A stretch of 64,000 nucleotides of DNA from Loktanella sp. D2R18 (GTDB lineage Bacteria; Pseudomonadota; Alphaproteobacteria; Rhodobacterales; Rhodobacteraceae), in contig NZ_QOCG01000011.1 in the NCBI RefSeq assembly GCF_003318235.1, positions 310,001-374,000 of the forward strand, read 5' to 3'. This document shows positions 4,267 through 10,787 of this stretch, one piece after another. The position numbers and the translations under genes were made by a program. The notes under the pieces were generated by a model. The model saw only the letters and a list, made by a program, of their open reading frames with translations, searched no databases and was not told the DNA's origin. Position 1 is the first letter of the stretch, and each line of letters starts with the position of its first letter.

Positions 4267-5460
4267 TCATGCGGCGGCCTCTTGGGGTGGTGCGCGGGAT
4301 TGCGGTTTCTGGCCGCGTCGGAAAGTCTCGATGATGCGCATTGCGCCGCCACAGTCTGGGCATGGTTCTCGCAATGTGAGTGGGACGGCTTCTGCGGCTG
4401 ATGTGTCTTCTAGTTTTTTTGGGGGTGCGCCAAGCAACGTGAACACTTTTGCAATATTAACCTTGCGCTTTGAACTGGCCAACAGGCCCTAGTGGCGGAT
4501 ACGGTGGAAGCGATCGGGCAGCACATGGATCAGAAAGCGCCGGATGACCTCGGAGGTTGAGAGGCGCATAACGCTCTGTCTGTCGTCGGATTTGATGCGG
4601 TAATTTTTCCATTTGAACGCGACAGTGTTGGCATCGGCGTTGATCAGACGACTGTTTAAAATTGCCACGCGATGCGTATATCGGCTGAAATAGGCCAGCA
4701 CTGCCTCGGGGCCACCGAAGGGTGGTTTGGCGTAGACCACCCAATCTATTTTACACAATGGGGCGAGATACGCGGCAAGAGCGTGAGCCTCTGACAGTCC
4801 AGTCAGATCACCGAAGAAGACCAGTTCGCCTGTGCGATGTAAGGCCAGCAGCCCTTCGATAAACAGGCGGCGGAACAATCGAGACAACACCCGCACCTGC
4901 AGAAAGAACCCCGGCTTGCAGGCGACCCAGCGGTTGCCACTTGGCGACAGGCCGCCACCCGGAATGATCATATGAATGTGCGGGTGATGGGTCAGTGCCG
5001 ATCCCCAAGTGTGCAGTACAGATGTCATGCCAACCTTTGCACCGAGGCGCTTGGAATCAGCTGCAATTGTCATCACCGTTTGCGCAGACGCTTTGAACAG
5101 AAGGCCATAGACGGCCTTCTTGTTCCAGTAGGCGATGCGGGCGATCTCAGCGGGCAACGTGAAGACGACGTGGAAGTATTCCACCGGCAGCAGATCCTCT
5201 GCCCGCGCCGCCATCCAGTCGCGCGCAGCCGGACCCTGACATTTGGGGCCGTGGCGGTTCTTGCAGCTGTTGTACGCGATGTGGTGATGGTTGCACTTGG
5301 TACAGGCCGCTACATGCCCGCCGAGCGCCTCGGTTCGGCAGGCCTCAATGGAGGACATCCCTTTGAGCTGGCTGAGGCTGACATGTCCCCTATTGGCCCG
5401 CCGCCAAGCAGGGCCATGGGTGCGGAAGATGTCAGCGGTCTCCAGCTTGAACTTTGGCAA
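4267..5460 (-). pseudogene. IS91-family transposase with internal amber codon
   Basis: The reading frame runs for 397 residue positions but is interrupted by TAG at 4489-4491 (position 324). Before it come an N-terminal cysteine/histidine-rich zinc-binding region (CRTEALGGHVAAC, CTKC, CKNRHGPKC), the HUH-type nuclease motif HPHIH, and the conserved FSRYTHRVAI block. After it, in the same frame, the normal C-terminus follows (GLLASSKRKVN, then CPDCGG and FRRG). In relatives the interrupted block reads RHYGLLA, so a single base change turned Tyr into a stop. It starts with TTG, 11 bases after the companion integrase gene. The enzyme would nick and rolling-circle transpose the element; here it is probably dead. 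Confidence 0.9.
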
Positions 5461-5471
5461 CTGACCAGTAC

Positions 5472-5965
5472 TTATCCCGGTCGGTGATGCAGGTTCTCGA
5501 TGTTCAGCCTCTTCAGCGCTTCGAATGGGCTGGGCGTATCCCGGATCGTCTTGGTGGCGACATGGGTATAGCGCGCCGCCGTGCTCAACACTTCAGAACC
5601 GGGCCAGGGGCCGCAGCAAGAAGCTCCGAAACGTCCTCGATACTTAGCACCGTCGGCAACTTCCGTGGTTGCGTGCGGGACTGCATGTACTTCTTCATCT
5701 CTTCGCGCCCGCAGGTCTTCCCATACAGAAACCTGAACGCCATGATCCGCGCATTATATGTAGGCGGCGTGACCCCAGTATCGGTCATGTGCAGCTGATA
5801 GGCGCGCAGGTCGTCAGGCGTCGCCGTATCAGGTGATCGCTTCAAGAACCCGGCAAAATGCTTGATCGCCCGGATATGAGCCTTTTGCGCTTTATCGCCC
5901 ATCCCATGAATGCGCATATCTGCGATCATCCGCTCACGCAGCGGAGTTGTCTTCTCATGTGTCAT
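5472..5965 (-). pseudogene. IS91-associated tyrosine recombinase, catalytic core deleted
   Basis: The first 126 codons give an intact N-terminal SAM-like core-binding domain (MTHEKTTPLRERMI start, DLRAYQLHM, PPTYNARIMAFRFLYG) and then hit a stop at 5585. The very C-terminal segment of the same family (TAARYTHVATKTIRD... to LHHRPG, with the catalytic Tyr context) follows at once in a different frame and ends at TAA 5472-5474. The catalytic middle with the Arg-His-Arg residues is missing, so roughly half of the protein has been removed by one internal deletion whose junction is near 5585-5600. Ribosome site GGAG precedes the ATG. Confidence 0.82.
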
Positions 5966-6301
5966 GGAAATCTCCTGTCCGTTGATTGAGAAGGCTCAAT
6001 CGTCAGACAGGTGCGTCAGATATCAAAATGCACAGCGTTCACAGCAACGTGCCACGTTCAAAACAAACGCCATTGCCGCGGTAGCAGCTTCGTCCAAATC
6101 CCGCTAAGTGGTCATCCACTCAAAAATTCCTGAAAGTCGGGATTGCATCAGCATCGTTTGTCGCGCCTCAGTCGTCAGTGCAAAAATTCTGCACGATCAT
6201 GTCATGGATCTAGGTCGATACACACTGCCCCTTGAGCCTTGGTCCCCTGCCCCTTATGACGCAGGGGAATATAGCTGCTCACCCCAAGAAAGGTGCCACC
6301 C
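5966..6301. other. intergenic region upstream of purB
   Basis: This 336-base gap has no credible gene. Its first 36 bases hold the hairpin that probably belongs to the IS91 end (stem GATTGAG at 5984-5990 with CTCAATC at 5995-6001). The rest must contain the purB promoter, but I cannot point to clear -35 and -10 boxes. A hairpin sits near its right end (see 6244-6267). Confidence 0.5.
6244..6267 (+). promoter_or_regulatory. hairpin in purB leader
   Basis: A perfect 7-bp inverted repeat (CCCCTGC and GCAGGGG) with a 10-base loop ends 34 bases before the purB ATG. It could be a leader structure or an operator. No T-run follows, so it is not a standard terminator. Its function is unknown. Confidence 0.35.
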
Positions 6302-7609
6302 ATGATTCCACGCTATTCCCGCCCAGAAATGACCGCCATCTGGGAGCCCGCTGCCAAATTCAAAATCTGGTACGAGATCGAAGCCTATGCCTGCGACGCC
6401 CAAGCTGCGATCGGCGTGATTCCTGCTGAAAGCGCCGCTGCCGTTTGGAAAGCCAAGGACGTGGAATTTGATGTGGCCCGCATCGACGAAATCGAAGCTG
6501 TAACCAAACACGACGTTATCGCGTTCCTGACGCATCTGGCCGAACATATCGGATCAACCGAAGCCCGTTTTGTGCATCAGGGTATGACATCTTCCGATGT
6601 TCTTGACACAACATTCAACGTACAGCTTGTGCGCGCCGCCGACCTGCTTTTGTCTGGCATGGACCGTGTTCTTGCTGCGCTGAAAACTCGCGCGATTGAG
6701 CACAAGGAAACCATCCGCATTGGACGCAGCCACGGTATCCACGCAGAACCGACAACAATGGGGCTGACTTTTGCCCGGTTTTACGCGGAAATGGACCGGG
6801 GCCGCGCGCGTCTGGTTGCCGCACGCGCGGAAATCGCAACGGGTGCTATTTCTGGCGCTGTTGGCACATTCGCCAATATTGACCCATCCGTTGAAGAACA
6901 TGTTTGCGCAAAACTTGGCCTATCCCCAGAGCCGATCAGCACACAAGTCATTCCACGTGACCGCCACGCGATGTTCTTTGCCACGCTGGGTGTGATCGCA
7001 TCCTCTATTGAGAACATCGCCACTGAAGTCCGCCACATGCAGCGCACCGAAGTTCTTGAGGCCGAAGAGTTTTTCTCAAAAGGCCAAAAGGGATCTTCTG
7101 CGATGCCGCACAAACGCAACCCTGTTCTGACTGAAAACCTGACAGGGCTTGCACGTTTGGTGCGCATGTCAGTTGTTCCTGCAATGGAAAACGTGACGCT
7201 TTGGCACGAACGCGATATCAGCCACTCGTCCGTAGAGCGCGCGATTGGCCCTGACACAACCGTCACATTGGATTTCGCCCTGCACCGTTTGGCAGGCGTC
7301 ATCGAAAAGCTGGTGATCTACCCTGACAACATGTTGGCCAACATGAACAAATTCCGTGGCCTCGTGATGTCACAGCGCGTCCTTCTTGCACTGACCCAAG
7401 CCGGAGTCAGCCGCGAAGACGCCTACAAGCTGGTGCAACGCAACGCGATGAAGGTTTGGGAGCAAGGCAAAGACTTCCAAACCGAACTTTTGGGTGATGA
7501 CGACGTGCTTGCTGCGCTATCCGCCGAAGAAATCAAAGAAAAATTCGACCTCGGCTATCACACCAAACACGTTGAGACGATCTTTAAGCGGGTCTTTGGC
7601 GACAGCTAA
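6302..7609 (+). CDS. purB: adenylosuccinate lyase
   Basis: This 435-residue enzyme of the fumarase/aspartase superfamily catalyses two steps of purine synthesis: release of fumarate from SAICAR and from adenylosuccinate. The superfamily signature GSSAMPHKRNP is present near residue 262, and the early block MTSSDVLDT and the histidine-containing HGIHAEPTT block are intact. The ATG at 6302 (MIPRYSRPEM, the usual family N-terminus) is preferred over the in-frame GTG at 6293 because AAGAAAGG lies at the right distance before it. The gene stands alone and ends just before a strong hairpin terminator. Confidence 0.97.
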   Translation: MIPRYSRPEMTAIWEPAAKFKIWYEIEAYACDAQAAIGVIPAESAAAVWKAKDVEFDVARIDEIEAVTKHDVIAFLTHLAEHIGSTEARFVHQGMTSSDVLDTTFNVQLVRAADLLLSGMDRVLAALKTRAIEHKETIRIGRSHGIHAEPTTMGLTFARFYAEMDRGRARLVAARAEIATGAISGAVGTFANIDPSVEEHVCAKLGLSPEPISTQVIPRDRHAMFFATLGVIASSIENIATEVRHMQRTEVLEAEEFFSKGQKGSSAMPHKRNPVLTENLTGLARLVRMSVVPAMENVTLWHERDISHSSVERAIGPDTTVTLDFALHRLAGVIEKLVIYPDNMLANMNKFRGLVMSQRVLLALTQAGVSREDAYKLVQRNAMKVWEQGKDFQTELLGDDDVLAALSAEEIKEKFDLGYHTKHVETIFKRVFGDS

Positions 7610-7657: not shown

Positions 7658-8329
7658 CTAACTCACAGATGGCGCATGAACCGCAGCTAACGGCGCACCG
7701 CTTGCCGCCTTGGCTGAGTGTGCAACAGCGGCTGCTTTTGGCCGGCGTGGTTTTGCGGGCATGCTCATCGCGACATAACGGCGTTCATCGTGGCAATTCA
7801 CATACGAGTCACCAATCAGCTCCACATCGTAACCAAGTTGACGTAGCGTTCTGGAAAATACCGGCGGGCACAGCGCGATAATCTCGGTCCCACCGTGCGC
7901 TTTTGTCTGTTCTACGACGCCATCCAACACCAACCCCAAGCATTCTGCCCGCTCGGCTTGGGTTGTGACCTCATCGGAAATGACCACGCGCGTCGCTTCC
8001 CAAACATCGGGCGTCACAGTTGAGATGTCGATAATATCTTCTGGAATACCAATCAATTTGCCCGCAACTGCATCGCCCAACATATAGGTATGTGAACCCC
8101 ATTGAGCCGTCGTTGACATCGCTCGCATCCCGCCGATGACTTTGCCGTCACGCAAAACCAGAGAATAGTGCGCATTTGGGTTGTCATATTGATCCATCTC
8201 GACGGTGTCATCGTGTGGAATCTGCCAGCCAAGCTGGTCTACGAAGAATTGCTTACGCAGAGCAAGAAATTCATAAAAAGCGGTGCCGTGTAGGTGAAGC
8301 TGTGCGAAACTGAACGAAATATTTTCCAT
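7658..8329 (-). CDS. luxI: acyl-homoserine-lactone synthase
   Basis: This LuxI-family autoinducer synthase (223 residues) makes an N-acyl-homoserine lactone from S-adenosylmethionine and an acyl donor. The invariant residues sit at the expected places: R25, F29, W35, E44, D46, D49, R69, E111 and R114 (blocks LRKQFFVDQLGW, MDQYD, GGMRAM, WEATRVV). Beyond about residue 190 there is an Ala/Pro/Lys-rich tail with no family counterpart that I recognise. It lies 126 bases downstream of the luxR-type gene on the same strand, the classic regulator-synthase pair. An inverted repeat at 8377-8414 lies 48-85 bases before its start. The acyl chain length cannot be told from the sequence. Confidence 0.93.
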   Translation of the reverse strand: MENISFSFAQLHLHGTAFYEFLALRKQFFVDQLGWQIPHDDTVEMDQYDNPNAHYSLVLRDGKVIGGMRAMSTTAQWGSHTYMLGDAVAGKLIGIPEDIIDISTVTPDVWEATRVVISDEVTTQAERAECLGLVLDGVVEQTKAHGGTEIIALCPPVFSRTLRQLGYDVELIGDSYVNCHDERRYVAMSMPAKPRRPKAAAVAHSAKAASGAPLAAVHAPSVS

Positions 8330-8455: not shown

Positions 8456-9064
8456 TCAGATCAGGCCGTACTGGTTCGCGAGCGCCGCAGCTTGGGTGCC
8501 CGTTTTCGCTCCTAATTTTAGCTTTGCGTTCTTAAGACGTTGCTTCACAGCGCCTTCACTAACACTCAACTCAAAGGCGATCTCCTTGAGCCGTTTTCCG
8601 TCCTTGACCATCCCTAACGCTTCAAGCTCTGCACGGGTTAAATTGGTTGGCGGGGCGGTCTCGCCATGCCGTCTTACAAGCAAAGCCTTGAGCAGTTTGA
8701 CTTCAAGGTCACTATATTCGCGATCCCCACGCGTGAATGAAGCAAAAGAACGCTGGGCATCAATATTCCCATCAAACACTGACACAGTAACCCCAAAGCG
8801 CATCCCAAATGTCTTCGCTTGTGCAATCACACGTTTAGGATCATCAAGTGGTAGTTCGCTCCAGCGGCACATCCCGGTATTGCTGAATGCCCACCTAACC
8901 GCCGGATCAAAAAGCATAAACCTTTGGGTTGTGTAGTGATGCACCCAACCGGCAGGAAATGCATTCACTTCCTCCATCGGAAAAGCAAAGCCGATCCGAA
9001 GTGCAATATAATACCCGGAAGGAGCAAGCTGCTCGATTTCCTCCGGCCCCATCAACGTCGACAT
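8456..9064 (-). CDS. luxR: LuxR-family AHL-responsive transcriptional regulator
   Basis: The protein has 202 residues with two domains. Residues 1-135 are an autoinducer-binding domain with W40, Y44, D53, P54 and W68, the same spacing as the acyl-homoserine-lactone contacts of TraR (W57, Y61, D70, P71, W85). Residues 140-202 are a GerE-type helix-turn-helix (LTRAELEAL, LKEIAFELSVSEGAVKQRL). It is expected to bind the signal made by the adjacent synthase and control transcription, including probably luxI. It is on the short side for the family (usually about 235-250). A paralogue lacking the DNA-binding domain is transcribed divergently 137 bases away. Confidence 0.93.
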   Translation of the reverse strand: MSTLMGPEEIEQLAPSGYYIALRIGFAFPMEEVNAFPAGWVHHYTTQRFMLFDPAVRWAFSNTGMCRWSELPLDDPKRVIAQAKTFGMRFGVTVSVFDGNIDAQRSFASFTRGDREYSDLEVKLLKALLVRRHGETAPPTNLTRAELEALGMVKDGKRLKEIAFELSVSEGAVKQRLKNAKLKLGAKTGTQAAALANQYGLI

Positions 9065-9201
9065 TCTATTTCCCCGAGCCTCAAATTTTTTTAAGGTCTT
9101 GTTGCTGAACCACTGTTATCTGTAGAATGCGGAAAACGCGGTGCTTCGATTAGTAGTATTGCTATATTATCGCCCTTGGCAACCGGAAAGCGAGTTTAGA
9201 C

Positions 9202-9690
9202 ATGTCGCAAACACAAAACAAAATTGGCGAAATTTTGGAACAACTCGGTGAACTTGCGCCGGCTGGCTATGCGCTTGGTTTCCACATCGCATACACGACA
9301 CCTAAATTTATGTTCCAATCATATCCTAAAGCTTGGCTGGACTATTATTCGCAAAATGGGCTGGTGATGTCCGACCCGATGGTTGCTTGGGGATTCGAAC
9401 ACATAGGGACATGTCGTTGGTCTGAACTTGATGACCCAGCAGACGTCCTACAAAAGGCGACTGAATTTGGAATGCCATATGGCATTGTTTGTACAACAAA
9501 GTCCGGCGACAGCCTCAGTATTTGCGGTTTTGCACGCGCGGATCGCGAATTTTCCAACACTGAAATTCAAGATATATCCGGCAAAATTGAATCTTTGCAC
9601 AAATGGACCGCAGACAAGGCGCATTTGTCACCTGAGACCATTCAGGAACTTAAGAACATGTCAATTTCATTCACCCATCCGGGATCTTAA
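9202..9690 (+). CDS. HTH-less LuxR-type autoinducer-binding protein
   Basis: This 162-residue protein is a clear paralogue of the neighbouring LuxR regulator in its ligand domain: both share LAP(S/A)GY, the W-3x-Y motif, DP, G-x-CRWSEL, DP and FGM. W45, Y49, D58, P59 and W73 reproduce exactly the spacing of the TraR ligand contacts, so signal binding is likely. It ends after LSPETIQELKNMS, where the regulator's helix-turn-helix begins, and no DNA-binding segment can be found in any frame before the next gene. It may bind AHL as a sink, or form inactive heterodimers as HTH-less TrlR does with TraR; that role is inference. GGAAAGCGAG precedes the ATG. fliG follows after 47 bases on the same strand. 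Confidence 0.88.
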   Translation: MSQTQNKIGEILEQLGELAPAGYALGFHIAYTTPKFMFQSYPKAWLDYYSQNGLVMSDPMVAWGFEHIGTCRWSELDDPADVLQKATEFGMPYGIVCTTKSGDSLSICGFARADREFSNTEIQDISGKIESLHKWTADKAHLSPETIQELKNMSISFTHPGS

Positions 9691-9737
9691 ATAGAAGTTA
9701 TAACCTTTCATTTACCCCCATCCTATAGGCTGTGGGG

Positions 9738-10787
9738 ATGAGCATGCAGTTTGACACCCCGGCCGCATCGGCATTATCTCGCCGACGCAAAGCGGCAATG
9801 ATCGTTCAAATGATGATCAGCGACGGCGGCAACCTTTCGTTGTCTCAGTTACCCGAATCACTTCAAGAAGTTTTGACGAATGAATTGGGCGCAATAAAAC
9901 TGGTTGATCGGGATACCGTTGCGGATGTTGCGGCTGAATTCACCGCACAGCTTGACGCCATAGGTCTGTCGGCCCCAGGTTCGCGCGATGGGGCCATTGC
10001 AGCCCTATCTGATCACCTAAGCCCCTCTTTGGCGGAACGGTTGCGCGCCCAAATGGAGAGCGTGCGCAACGGTGATCATTGGCCTACAGTCGCCGATCTT
10101 TCAATTGAACGGCTGGTGGATATCATGACCCGTGAAAGCATCGAAATTTGCGCCGTCGCCCTATCAAAATTACAGGTTGGCAAAGCGGCAGAGGTTCTGA
10201 CACAAACGCCAGGTGAACGGGCACGCCGGATCACTTATGCAATGTCCCTGACATCTGAAATCTCGCCGGATGCCGTCCGCCGTATTGGGGCATCACTGGC
10301 CCAAGACTATGGGCAACCTACCAAATCCGCGTTTGAAAAACCCCCGGTGCAACGATTGGGCGCGATCTTGAATTCGACCATCACAGACACACGCGAAGAT
10401 GTGCTGACCTCACTGGGCGAAACGGACCCTGATTTTGCGAGCAATGTCCGCAAAGCTATCTTTACATTCAAAGACATCGCGCCACGCGTCAAACCCACCG
10501 ATATCCCCGGCTGCATTCGCGCTGTCGATGCAGAGGTGCTGACGCGCGCTATTGCGGCTGGTCTCGCGGGGGAACCGCAAATCGTGGCTTCGGCCGAATT
10601 CATCCTAGGCAGCGTGTCGCAACGTATGGCCGGACAAATGCGCGAAGACGCCGAAGAGATGGGGCGCATCAAAAAAGCTGACGCAGAGGCGGCGATGTCA
10701 GCCATCACCACGGCGATCCGCGAAATGGCGGAAAGCGGTGTCATCACATTGATTGACCCGGATGAGGATGACGACGAGGATGATTAG
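9738..10787 (+). CDS. fliG: flagellar motor switch protein FliG homologue
   Basis: The protein has about 349 residues. The C-terminal domain matches FliG: IFTFKDIAPRVKPTDI, then a torque helix in which the four charged positions known from E. coli (R281, D288, D289, R297) appear as R, E, D and K (SQRMAGQMREDAEEMG, then RIK). The N-terminal part is more divergent and the C-terminus is very acidic (EDDDEDD). FliG sits on the cytoplasmic face of the flagellar MS ring and receives torque from the stator. It is not in a flagellar cluster here but directly downstream of the HTH-less AHL receptor. The start is uncertain: GTG 9732, ATG 9738 and ATG 9744 are all in frame, and none has a strong ribosome site. 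Confidence 0.85.
   Translation: MSMQFDTPAASALSRRRKAAMIVQMMISDGGNLSLSQLPESLQEVLTNELGAIKLVDRDTVADVAAEFTAQLDAIGLSAPGSRDGAIAALSDHLSPSLAERLRAQMESVRNGDHWPTVADLSIERLVDIMTRESIEICAVALSKLQVGKAAEVLTQTPGERARRITYAMSLTSEISPDAVRRIGASLAQDYGQPTKSAFEKPPVQRLGAILNSTITDTREDVLTSLGETDPDFASNVRKAIFTFKDIAPRVKPTDIPGCIRAVDAEVLTRAIAAGLAGEPQIVASAEFILGSVSQRMAGQMREDAEEMGRIKKADAEAAMSAITTAIREMAESGVITLIDPDEDDDEDD

Follow-up and report, generated by a model that had tools for sequence, protein, structure and literature searches.

A probable CerN-type antagonist, lacking a helix-turn-helix, faces a CerM-type LuxR in Loktanella and many other Rhodobacteraceae

The window, a stretch of 64,000 nucleotides from Loktanella sp. D2R18, contains a compact quorum-sensing locus in which a gene for an autoinducer-binding protein without a helix-turn-helix (HTH) is transcribed away from a luxR-luxI pair. 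Its features, in positions of the window, are as follows.

6293-7609, plus strand: purB (adenylosuccinate lyase, presumed), beyond luxI, a syntenic flank
7658-8329, minus strand: LuxI-type acyl-homoserine-lactone (AHL) synthase (PF00765, E 6e-16), next after luxR, the probable signal source
8456-9064, minus strand: full-length LuxR of the CerM clade, 202 aa, with an autoinducer-binding domain (ABD) and GerE, divergent from the HTH-less gene (from Pfam and tree)
9065-9201: intergenic region between luxR and the HTH-less gene, 137 bp
9179-9194, plus strand: conserved element GCAACCNNAAAGCGAG, 7 nt ahead of the ATG of the HTH-less gene
9202-9690, plus strand: CerN-type HTH-less autoinducer-binding protein, a 162-aa ORF with an ATG start and pocket residues W45, Y49, D58, P59, W73 and G94
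9732-10787, plus strand: fliG, with a FliG_C match; the listed ORF begins 41 nt downstream of the HTH-less gene

The luxI and fliG flanks named in the first-pass annotation, which was made from the letters of the window, are both in place. The name purB for the ORF at 6293-7609 is an assumption that follows the gene order termed topology D, which is discussed below. Co-transcription of the HTH-less gene and fliG across the 41-nt gap is possible. Adjoining purB, at 4489-5965, are ORFs whose translations resemble a transposase of the IS91 type and part of a tyrosine recombinase.

The HTH-less protein had been described as a LuxR-type receptor reduced to its ligand domain and facing luxR-luxI, and the Pfam search bears this out: its sole match is PF03472 (E 3e-14), no GerE or other HTH model matches it in Pfam, and the divergent LuxR matches both PF03472 and GerE. 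The five ligand-contact residues W45, Y49, D58, P59 and W73 are present with the spacing of TraR, as claimed, and a sixth pocket residue, TraR G113, corresponds to G94. Across the alignment, W45, Y49, D58 and P59 are found in all 69 HTH-less rows, W73 in 68 and G94 in 65. The accompanying statement that the protein stops where the HTH begins is not exact, for although the GerE match is absent, residues up to about 150 align with the first ~10 residues of the LuxR's GerE domain. The C-terminal tail, L142-S162, is conserved within the genus Yoonia, in which the analysis places the source of the window, and a tail motif is present in 71 of 89 HTH-less sequences, the same sequences on which it was defined; CerN, described below, departs from it. 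Of five AlphaFold2 models computed from an input of seven sequences, the best reached a mean pLDDT of 79.5 (the other four ranged from 69.0 to 43.7), and Foldseek against the PDB matched it to RhlR, SdiA, QscR, TraR and other LuxR-type proteins, with a best TM of 0.66. The six pocket residues and the modelled ABD fold are those of a LuxR-type AHL receptor, and a PHROGs search with the protein returned zero matches.

A protein of this kind has been characterised in Cereibacter sphaeroides. CerN, named in 2024, is an HTH-less LuxR homolog that weakens the DNA binding of CerM in an AHL-dependent manner, and the evidence, obtained in strain WS8N, comprises pull-down, gel shift, lacZ and genetics (PMC11655674). 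CerM binds DNA without AHL, binding is weakened by CerN plus AHL, the two proteins co-purify solely in the presence of AHL, and loss of CerM restores the motility that is missing in cerN or cerI mutants (PMC11655674). The CerN and CerM sequences used here come from a genome (G106) taken as C. sphaeroides on its RC-L chain, which equals the PDB 4in5 chain over 282 residues; its domain scores are close to those in Table 2 of PMC11655674. In that genome the two genes are also divergent, CerM carries the published W57F, and in our trees CerN groups with the HTH-less proteins, whereas CerM is placed among the partner LuxRs.

The locus in the window resembles this pair in several respects: an HTH-less LuxR homolog of ~160 aa with an intact AHL pocket is divergent from a short LuxR (~200 aa) of the same clade, and the two proteins fall on the same tree sides as CerN and CerM. 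It differs in that cerR-cerI follows cerM in C. sphaeroides, whereas here a different, purB-linked luxI stands directly after luxR; moreover, fliG adjoins the HTH-less gene here, and the partner LuxR lacks the W57F of C. sphaeroides CerM. In a binding-domain tree of 155 rows, all 69 HTH-less rows, CerN included, lie on one side of a branch with an SH-aLRT of 90, and in a tree of 73 rows the branch uniting the HTH-less rows has values of 82/76 and appears in 86% of 200 bootstrap trees. Support for the grouping with CerN is moderate; CerN sits on a long branch and shares ~35% identity with the HTH-less protein of the window. On the other side, 67 of the 69 partner LuxRs, CerM among them, form together with L179 of C. 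sphaeroides a single 68-row set (SH-aLRT 99), and a 79-row tree places the window's LuxR in a 28-row set with CerM and other partners at 100/99, apart from GtaR. With a distant outgroup the root of the latter tree falls among the HTH-less rows, which is taken for long-branch attraction. Two proteins first labelled as partners, L114 and L128, fall with GtaR in the same tree. The neighbouring LuxR was also considered as a GtaR/LuxR1 ortholog, which its place in the CerM clade at 100/99 rules out.

The gene in the window is thus probably a CerN-type antagonist of its CerM-type LuxR neighbour. The LuxI (7658-8329) would make an AHL, the HTH-less protein would bind it via its intact pocket, and the AHL-bound protein would pair with the divergent LuxR and take it off its DNA sites, the partner's regulon being switched by the signal through a receptor that is itself unable to bind DNA. 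That such a receptor acts on the LuxR of its own locus is very likely. By analogy with CerN, the most likely action is that it switches the neighbouring LuxR off when the signal is present; the source genome would then possess a CerN-like activity and a circuit inverted as in CerM/CerN, with the product of the adjacent LuxI as the presumptive ligand. Several points weigh against this reading: the intact W57 of the partner, the moderate tree support with CerN on a long branch, the different luxI, the lack of a published CerM site between the two genes, and three genomes in which the luxR stands alone. A three-component circuit of synthase, activator and decoy had been proposed for this locus; in the form of synthase, regulator and antagonist it agrees with the linkage and purifying selection described below and with CerN, which acts on its LuxR in experiments (PMC11655674).

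The earlier proposal was modelled on TrlR of Agrobacterium, which is likewise an ABD-only, AHL-dependent blocker of a LuxR-type protein; TrlR, however, is a near-identical copy of TraR rather than an old gene conserved in its own right, and its target is an AHL-dependent activator (PMC11655674, PMC4338825). Read literally, the TrlR model has the HTH-less protein form dead heterodimers with an ordinary AHL-dependent activator LuxR and so set a threshold, and we regard this as unlikely, though the strongest of the alternatives. Besides the missing HTH, it is favoured by the partner's pocket, in which W57, Y61, D70, P71, W85 and G113 are all intact, unlike CerM with its W57F; because W57 is kept, the partner LuxR may itself bind or need AHL. 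Against it, TrlR is 88% identical to TraR (PMC11655674), whereas the HTH-less protein shares 32% identity with its neighbour, an AU test rejects the union of the two in one clade (p-AU 0.0001), and the one tested relative, CerN, works the CerM/CerN way. The first-pass idea of an antagonist of LuxR is well supported, but that of a decoy for an AHL-dependent activator is uncertain, because CerM needs no AHL to bind DNA and CerN with AHL weakens that binding. Its further suggestion, a duplicate of the neighbouring luxR, is rejected by the same p-AU value; the neighbour is the closest visible relative inside the window, but one of the family matches listed, a full-length LuxR encoded by G233 (L128, which falls with GtaR), shares 48% identity with the HTH-less protein. 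The W57F of CerM was hypothesised to be important by the authors who described CerN (PMC11655674). As a general cause of a LuxR not sensing AHL it was discarded, since 68 of the 69 LuxR rows keep W57 (the window's and 67 of 68 others, two of which were later placed with GtaR) and CerM is the exception.

The distribution of the gene was followed in a family sample of 394 Rhodobacteraceae genomes, approximately one per genus, at least 215 of which match the HTH-less protein when full LuxRs are counted in. Sixty regions were selected, not randomly, from the best and longest matches among those listed; L177 (G106) and L182 (G146) brought these to 62, and removal of L114 and L128, which are full-length LuxRs, left 60 with an HTH-less gene. 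At these loci the gene is divergent from a LuxR in 56 cases, with 81-169 bp between, on the same strand in three, and without a LuxR in one (G299); a luxI-like gene is present in 50, purB in 27 and fliG in 23, counts that are limited by flank length. PF03472 was found in all 59 HTH-less proteins scanned (43 + 16, the window's included) and GerE in none of them, whereas all 32 partner LuxRs scanned in Pfam carry GerE. Absence of the HTH was judged by Pfam for those 59 proteins and by protein length for the remainder; an HTH profile built from Yoonia LuxRs overlooks the HTH of CerR-type proteins.

Because the score ranges of HTH-less proteins and GtaR-type LuxRs overlap under the HTH-less profile, pairing was counted from the LuxR side, where the LuxR profile separates the classes at hand (CerM-type at least 232 bits, GtaR-type at most 208). 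A CerM-type LuxR is present in 78 of the 394 genomes (E 1e-65 or better), and in 75 of these an HTH-less gene lies at the luxR locus, the two being divergent neighbours in 72. The 75 comprise 60 genomes from the sets of retrieved regions, among them G000 and G048, 14 checked separately, and G167, counted on match coordinates and frame length only. In three genomes (G149, G238 and G343) the pair is on one strand, with luxI between its members in two. The HTH-less gene as a whole is present in 76 of the sampled genomes, from 75 genera. A Fisher test of the association gave 6e-76, with its four counts entered by hand, related genomes treated as independent, and a 'neither' cell that would also hold genomes with an undetected HTH-less gene. 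The first-pass annotation had named conserved linkage with luxR as a check, and it is seen in 53 of 56 Yoonia genomes and 75 of the 78 with a CerM-type luxR; near-obligate pairing is what is expected of a protein that acts on the CerM-type LuxR.

The same figures weigh on the idea that the HTH-less protein is a signal buffer that sequesters AHL without touching LuxR. The conserved pocket is compatible with such a role, and sequestration has been proposed for ABD-only proteins (PMC4338825). A pure sponge, however, need not follow one kind of LuxR as this gene does, and a pull-down showed AHL-dependent contact between CerN and CerM (PMC11655674), so that we consider buffering quite improbable.

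The survey also brought to light some variants. In three genomes (G140, G346 and G434; loci L221, L229 and L232) a CerM-type luxR stands alone, lacking an HTH-less gene, and in two of them it adjoins fliG; these are natural cases in which to ask how a CerM-type LuxR acts unaccompanied. Multiple pairs per genome are found in G162 (L117, L233 and L234), which additionally has an unpaired CerM-type luxR, and in G061 (L073 and L123). Six genera (L224, L228, L236, L237, L177 and L182) have a layout like that of C. sphaeroides, with a CerR-like luxR beside the pair; five of the six also carry there, in place of the purB-linked luxI, another luxI, which suggests replacement of the synthase.

Within Yoonia, 53 of 56 genomes match the HTH-less protein, and in all 53 the HTH-less and LuxR matches are on opposite strands of one contig (judged by eye), with wider gaps of ~1.3 kb in G055 and ~0.46 kb in G014; G029 has an in-frame stop in the HTH-less gene. 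The protein is exactly 162 aa in 28 of the 29 Yoonia loci examined, the window's included, and 154 aa in the other, and over 89 loci its length is 143-180 aa with a median of 162. Pairs with dS between 0.05 and 2 were used for dN/dS (n=39 for the HTH-less gene, n=42 for LuxR). The median is 0.12 for the HTH-less gene (13 pairs, dS<1.5) and 0.04 for the partner LuxR (17 pairs). Tail and body are under similar constraint, with medians of 0.16 and 0.18, and the paired median dN of HTH-less gene and LuxR is 0.118 vs 0.040 (14 pairs). The HTH-less gene thus evolves more quickly than its LuxR partner, yet it is under clear purifying selection, the second of the checks proposed at first pass. Recent truncation of a luxR, which had been named as a finding that would overturn the proposal, is excluded by the constant length, by the dN/dS of ~0.12 and by GerE being confined to the partner LuxRs among the proteins scanned. 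A decaying remnant of a duplicated luxR is hardly credible, since the higher dN and the stop in G029, which would fit decay, stand against the narrow range of lengths, an omega of ~0.12 with a tail no less constrained than the body, and presence in 75 genera.

Two short conserved elements lie between the genes. Across Yoonia, GCAACCNNAAAGCGAG is located 6-9 nt ahead of the HTH-less start codon, exact in 25 of 28 loci and with at most one mismatch in all 28, the loci from which the pattern was derived. In 56 other loci it occurs with at most three mismatches in 24, 5-21 nt before the start, against an average of 0.16 and at most 3 in 200 mononucleotide shuffles; 84 intergenic regions were covered overall. 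The source genome has one exact copy and two more with two mismatches. The second element, AAAGnnCTTGTTGct, at about 9093-9106 in the window, is upstream of the luxR start and conserved genus-wide, and when read on the luxR strand it has a core, GCAAC, in common with GCAACCNNAAAGCGAG. Neither equals the published CerM site, TNT(N5)AAGACA(N2)T, which with at most one mismatch is found nowhere between luxR and the HTH-less gene and has 7 matches in the window, where 7.3 are expected; the recognition site may have diverged together with the HTH. GCAACCNNAAAGCGAG could be an operator or a 5'-leader element.

Taken further, the CerN-type reading leads to a broader picture that we put forward only tentatively, as a joint claim. 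A split-receptor quorum circuit would be old in Rhodobacteraceae, consisting of an AHL-sensing protein without DNA binding, a divergent DNA-binding partner released by AHL, and a dedicated luxI; the arrangement of C. sphaeroides would be derived, cerI-cerR having replaced that luxI, and GCAACCNNAAAGCGAG would be a feedback site, either an operator or an mRNA element.

The fliG beside the HTH-less gene carries the only FliG_C match in the source genome; elsewhere there is one match each in G052 and G387 and there are two in G106. In Phaeobacter inhibens, fliG is distant from the flagellar cluster, insertions in the gene leave the cells non-motile, and no quorum-sensing gene was found essential for motility (PMC12363192). 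In C. sphaeroides, the CerN/CerM pair governs flagellar motility via CtrA (PMC11655674). By analogy with the latter, motility may be among the outputs of the circuit here, and the presence of the only fliG beside the HTH-less gene, together with the motility control by CerN/CerM, makes this link directly testable.

Parts of this arrangement have been recorded before. Topology D, an order of fliG, luxR-luxI and the adenylosuccinate lyase gene that occurs in Loktanella, Octadecabacter and their relatives (Cude and Buchan 2013, PMC3824088), has the gene order seen here, and the missing HTH is not mentioned in the accessible text of that paper. Group 4 of a 2015 LuxR-solo survey, 'fliG - [hp - abd] - luxR solo - asl', likewise has an ABD-only 'abd' gene near fliG and luxR, and in the accessible part of that survey the function of ABD-only proteins is speculated only (PMC4338825). 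In the CerN paper, as far as its accessible text goes, D. shibae, R. capsulatus, Ruegeria KLH11 and S. meliloti serve as the comparison for C. sphaeroides, and synteny is reported for gtaR only (PMC11655674). A literature search, with subscription papers mostly outside its scope, gave no report joining CerN/CerM to the fliG-abd-luxR order. What is new here is the link of CerN/CerM to topology D and Group 4, the near-obligate pairing in 75 of 78 genomes, and the conserved 16-nt GCAACCNNAAAGCGAG.

The CerN-type gene is spread more widely than the accessible text of the CerN paper describes (PMC11655674). CerN/CerM no longer looks like a speciality of C. sphaeroides but like a standard quorum-sensing part across many genera of a large, mostly marine family, and a function can now be suggested for the unexplained 'abd' gene of the LuxR-solo survey (PMC4338825). 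Moreover, the circuit may run with inverted sign, the signal freeing LuxR from DNA, which matters where the luxR-luxI systems of roseobacters are read as plain activators.
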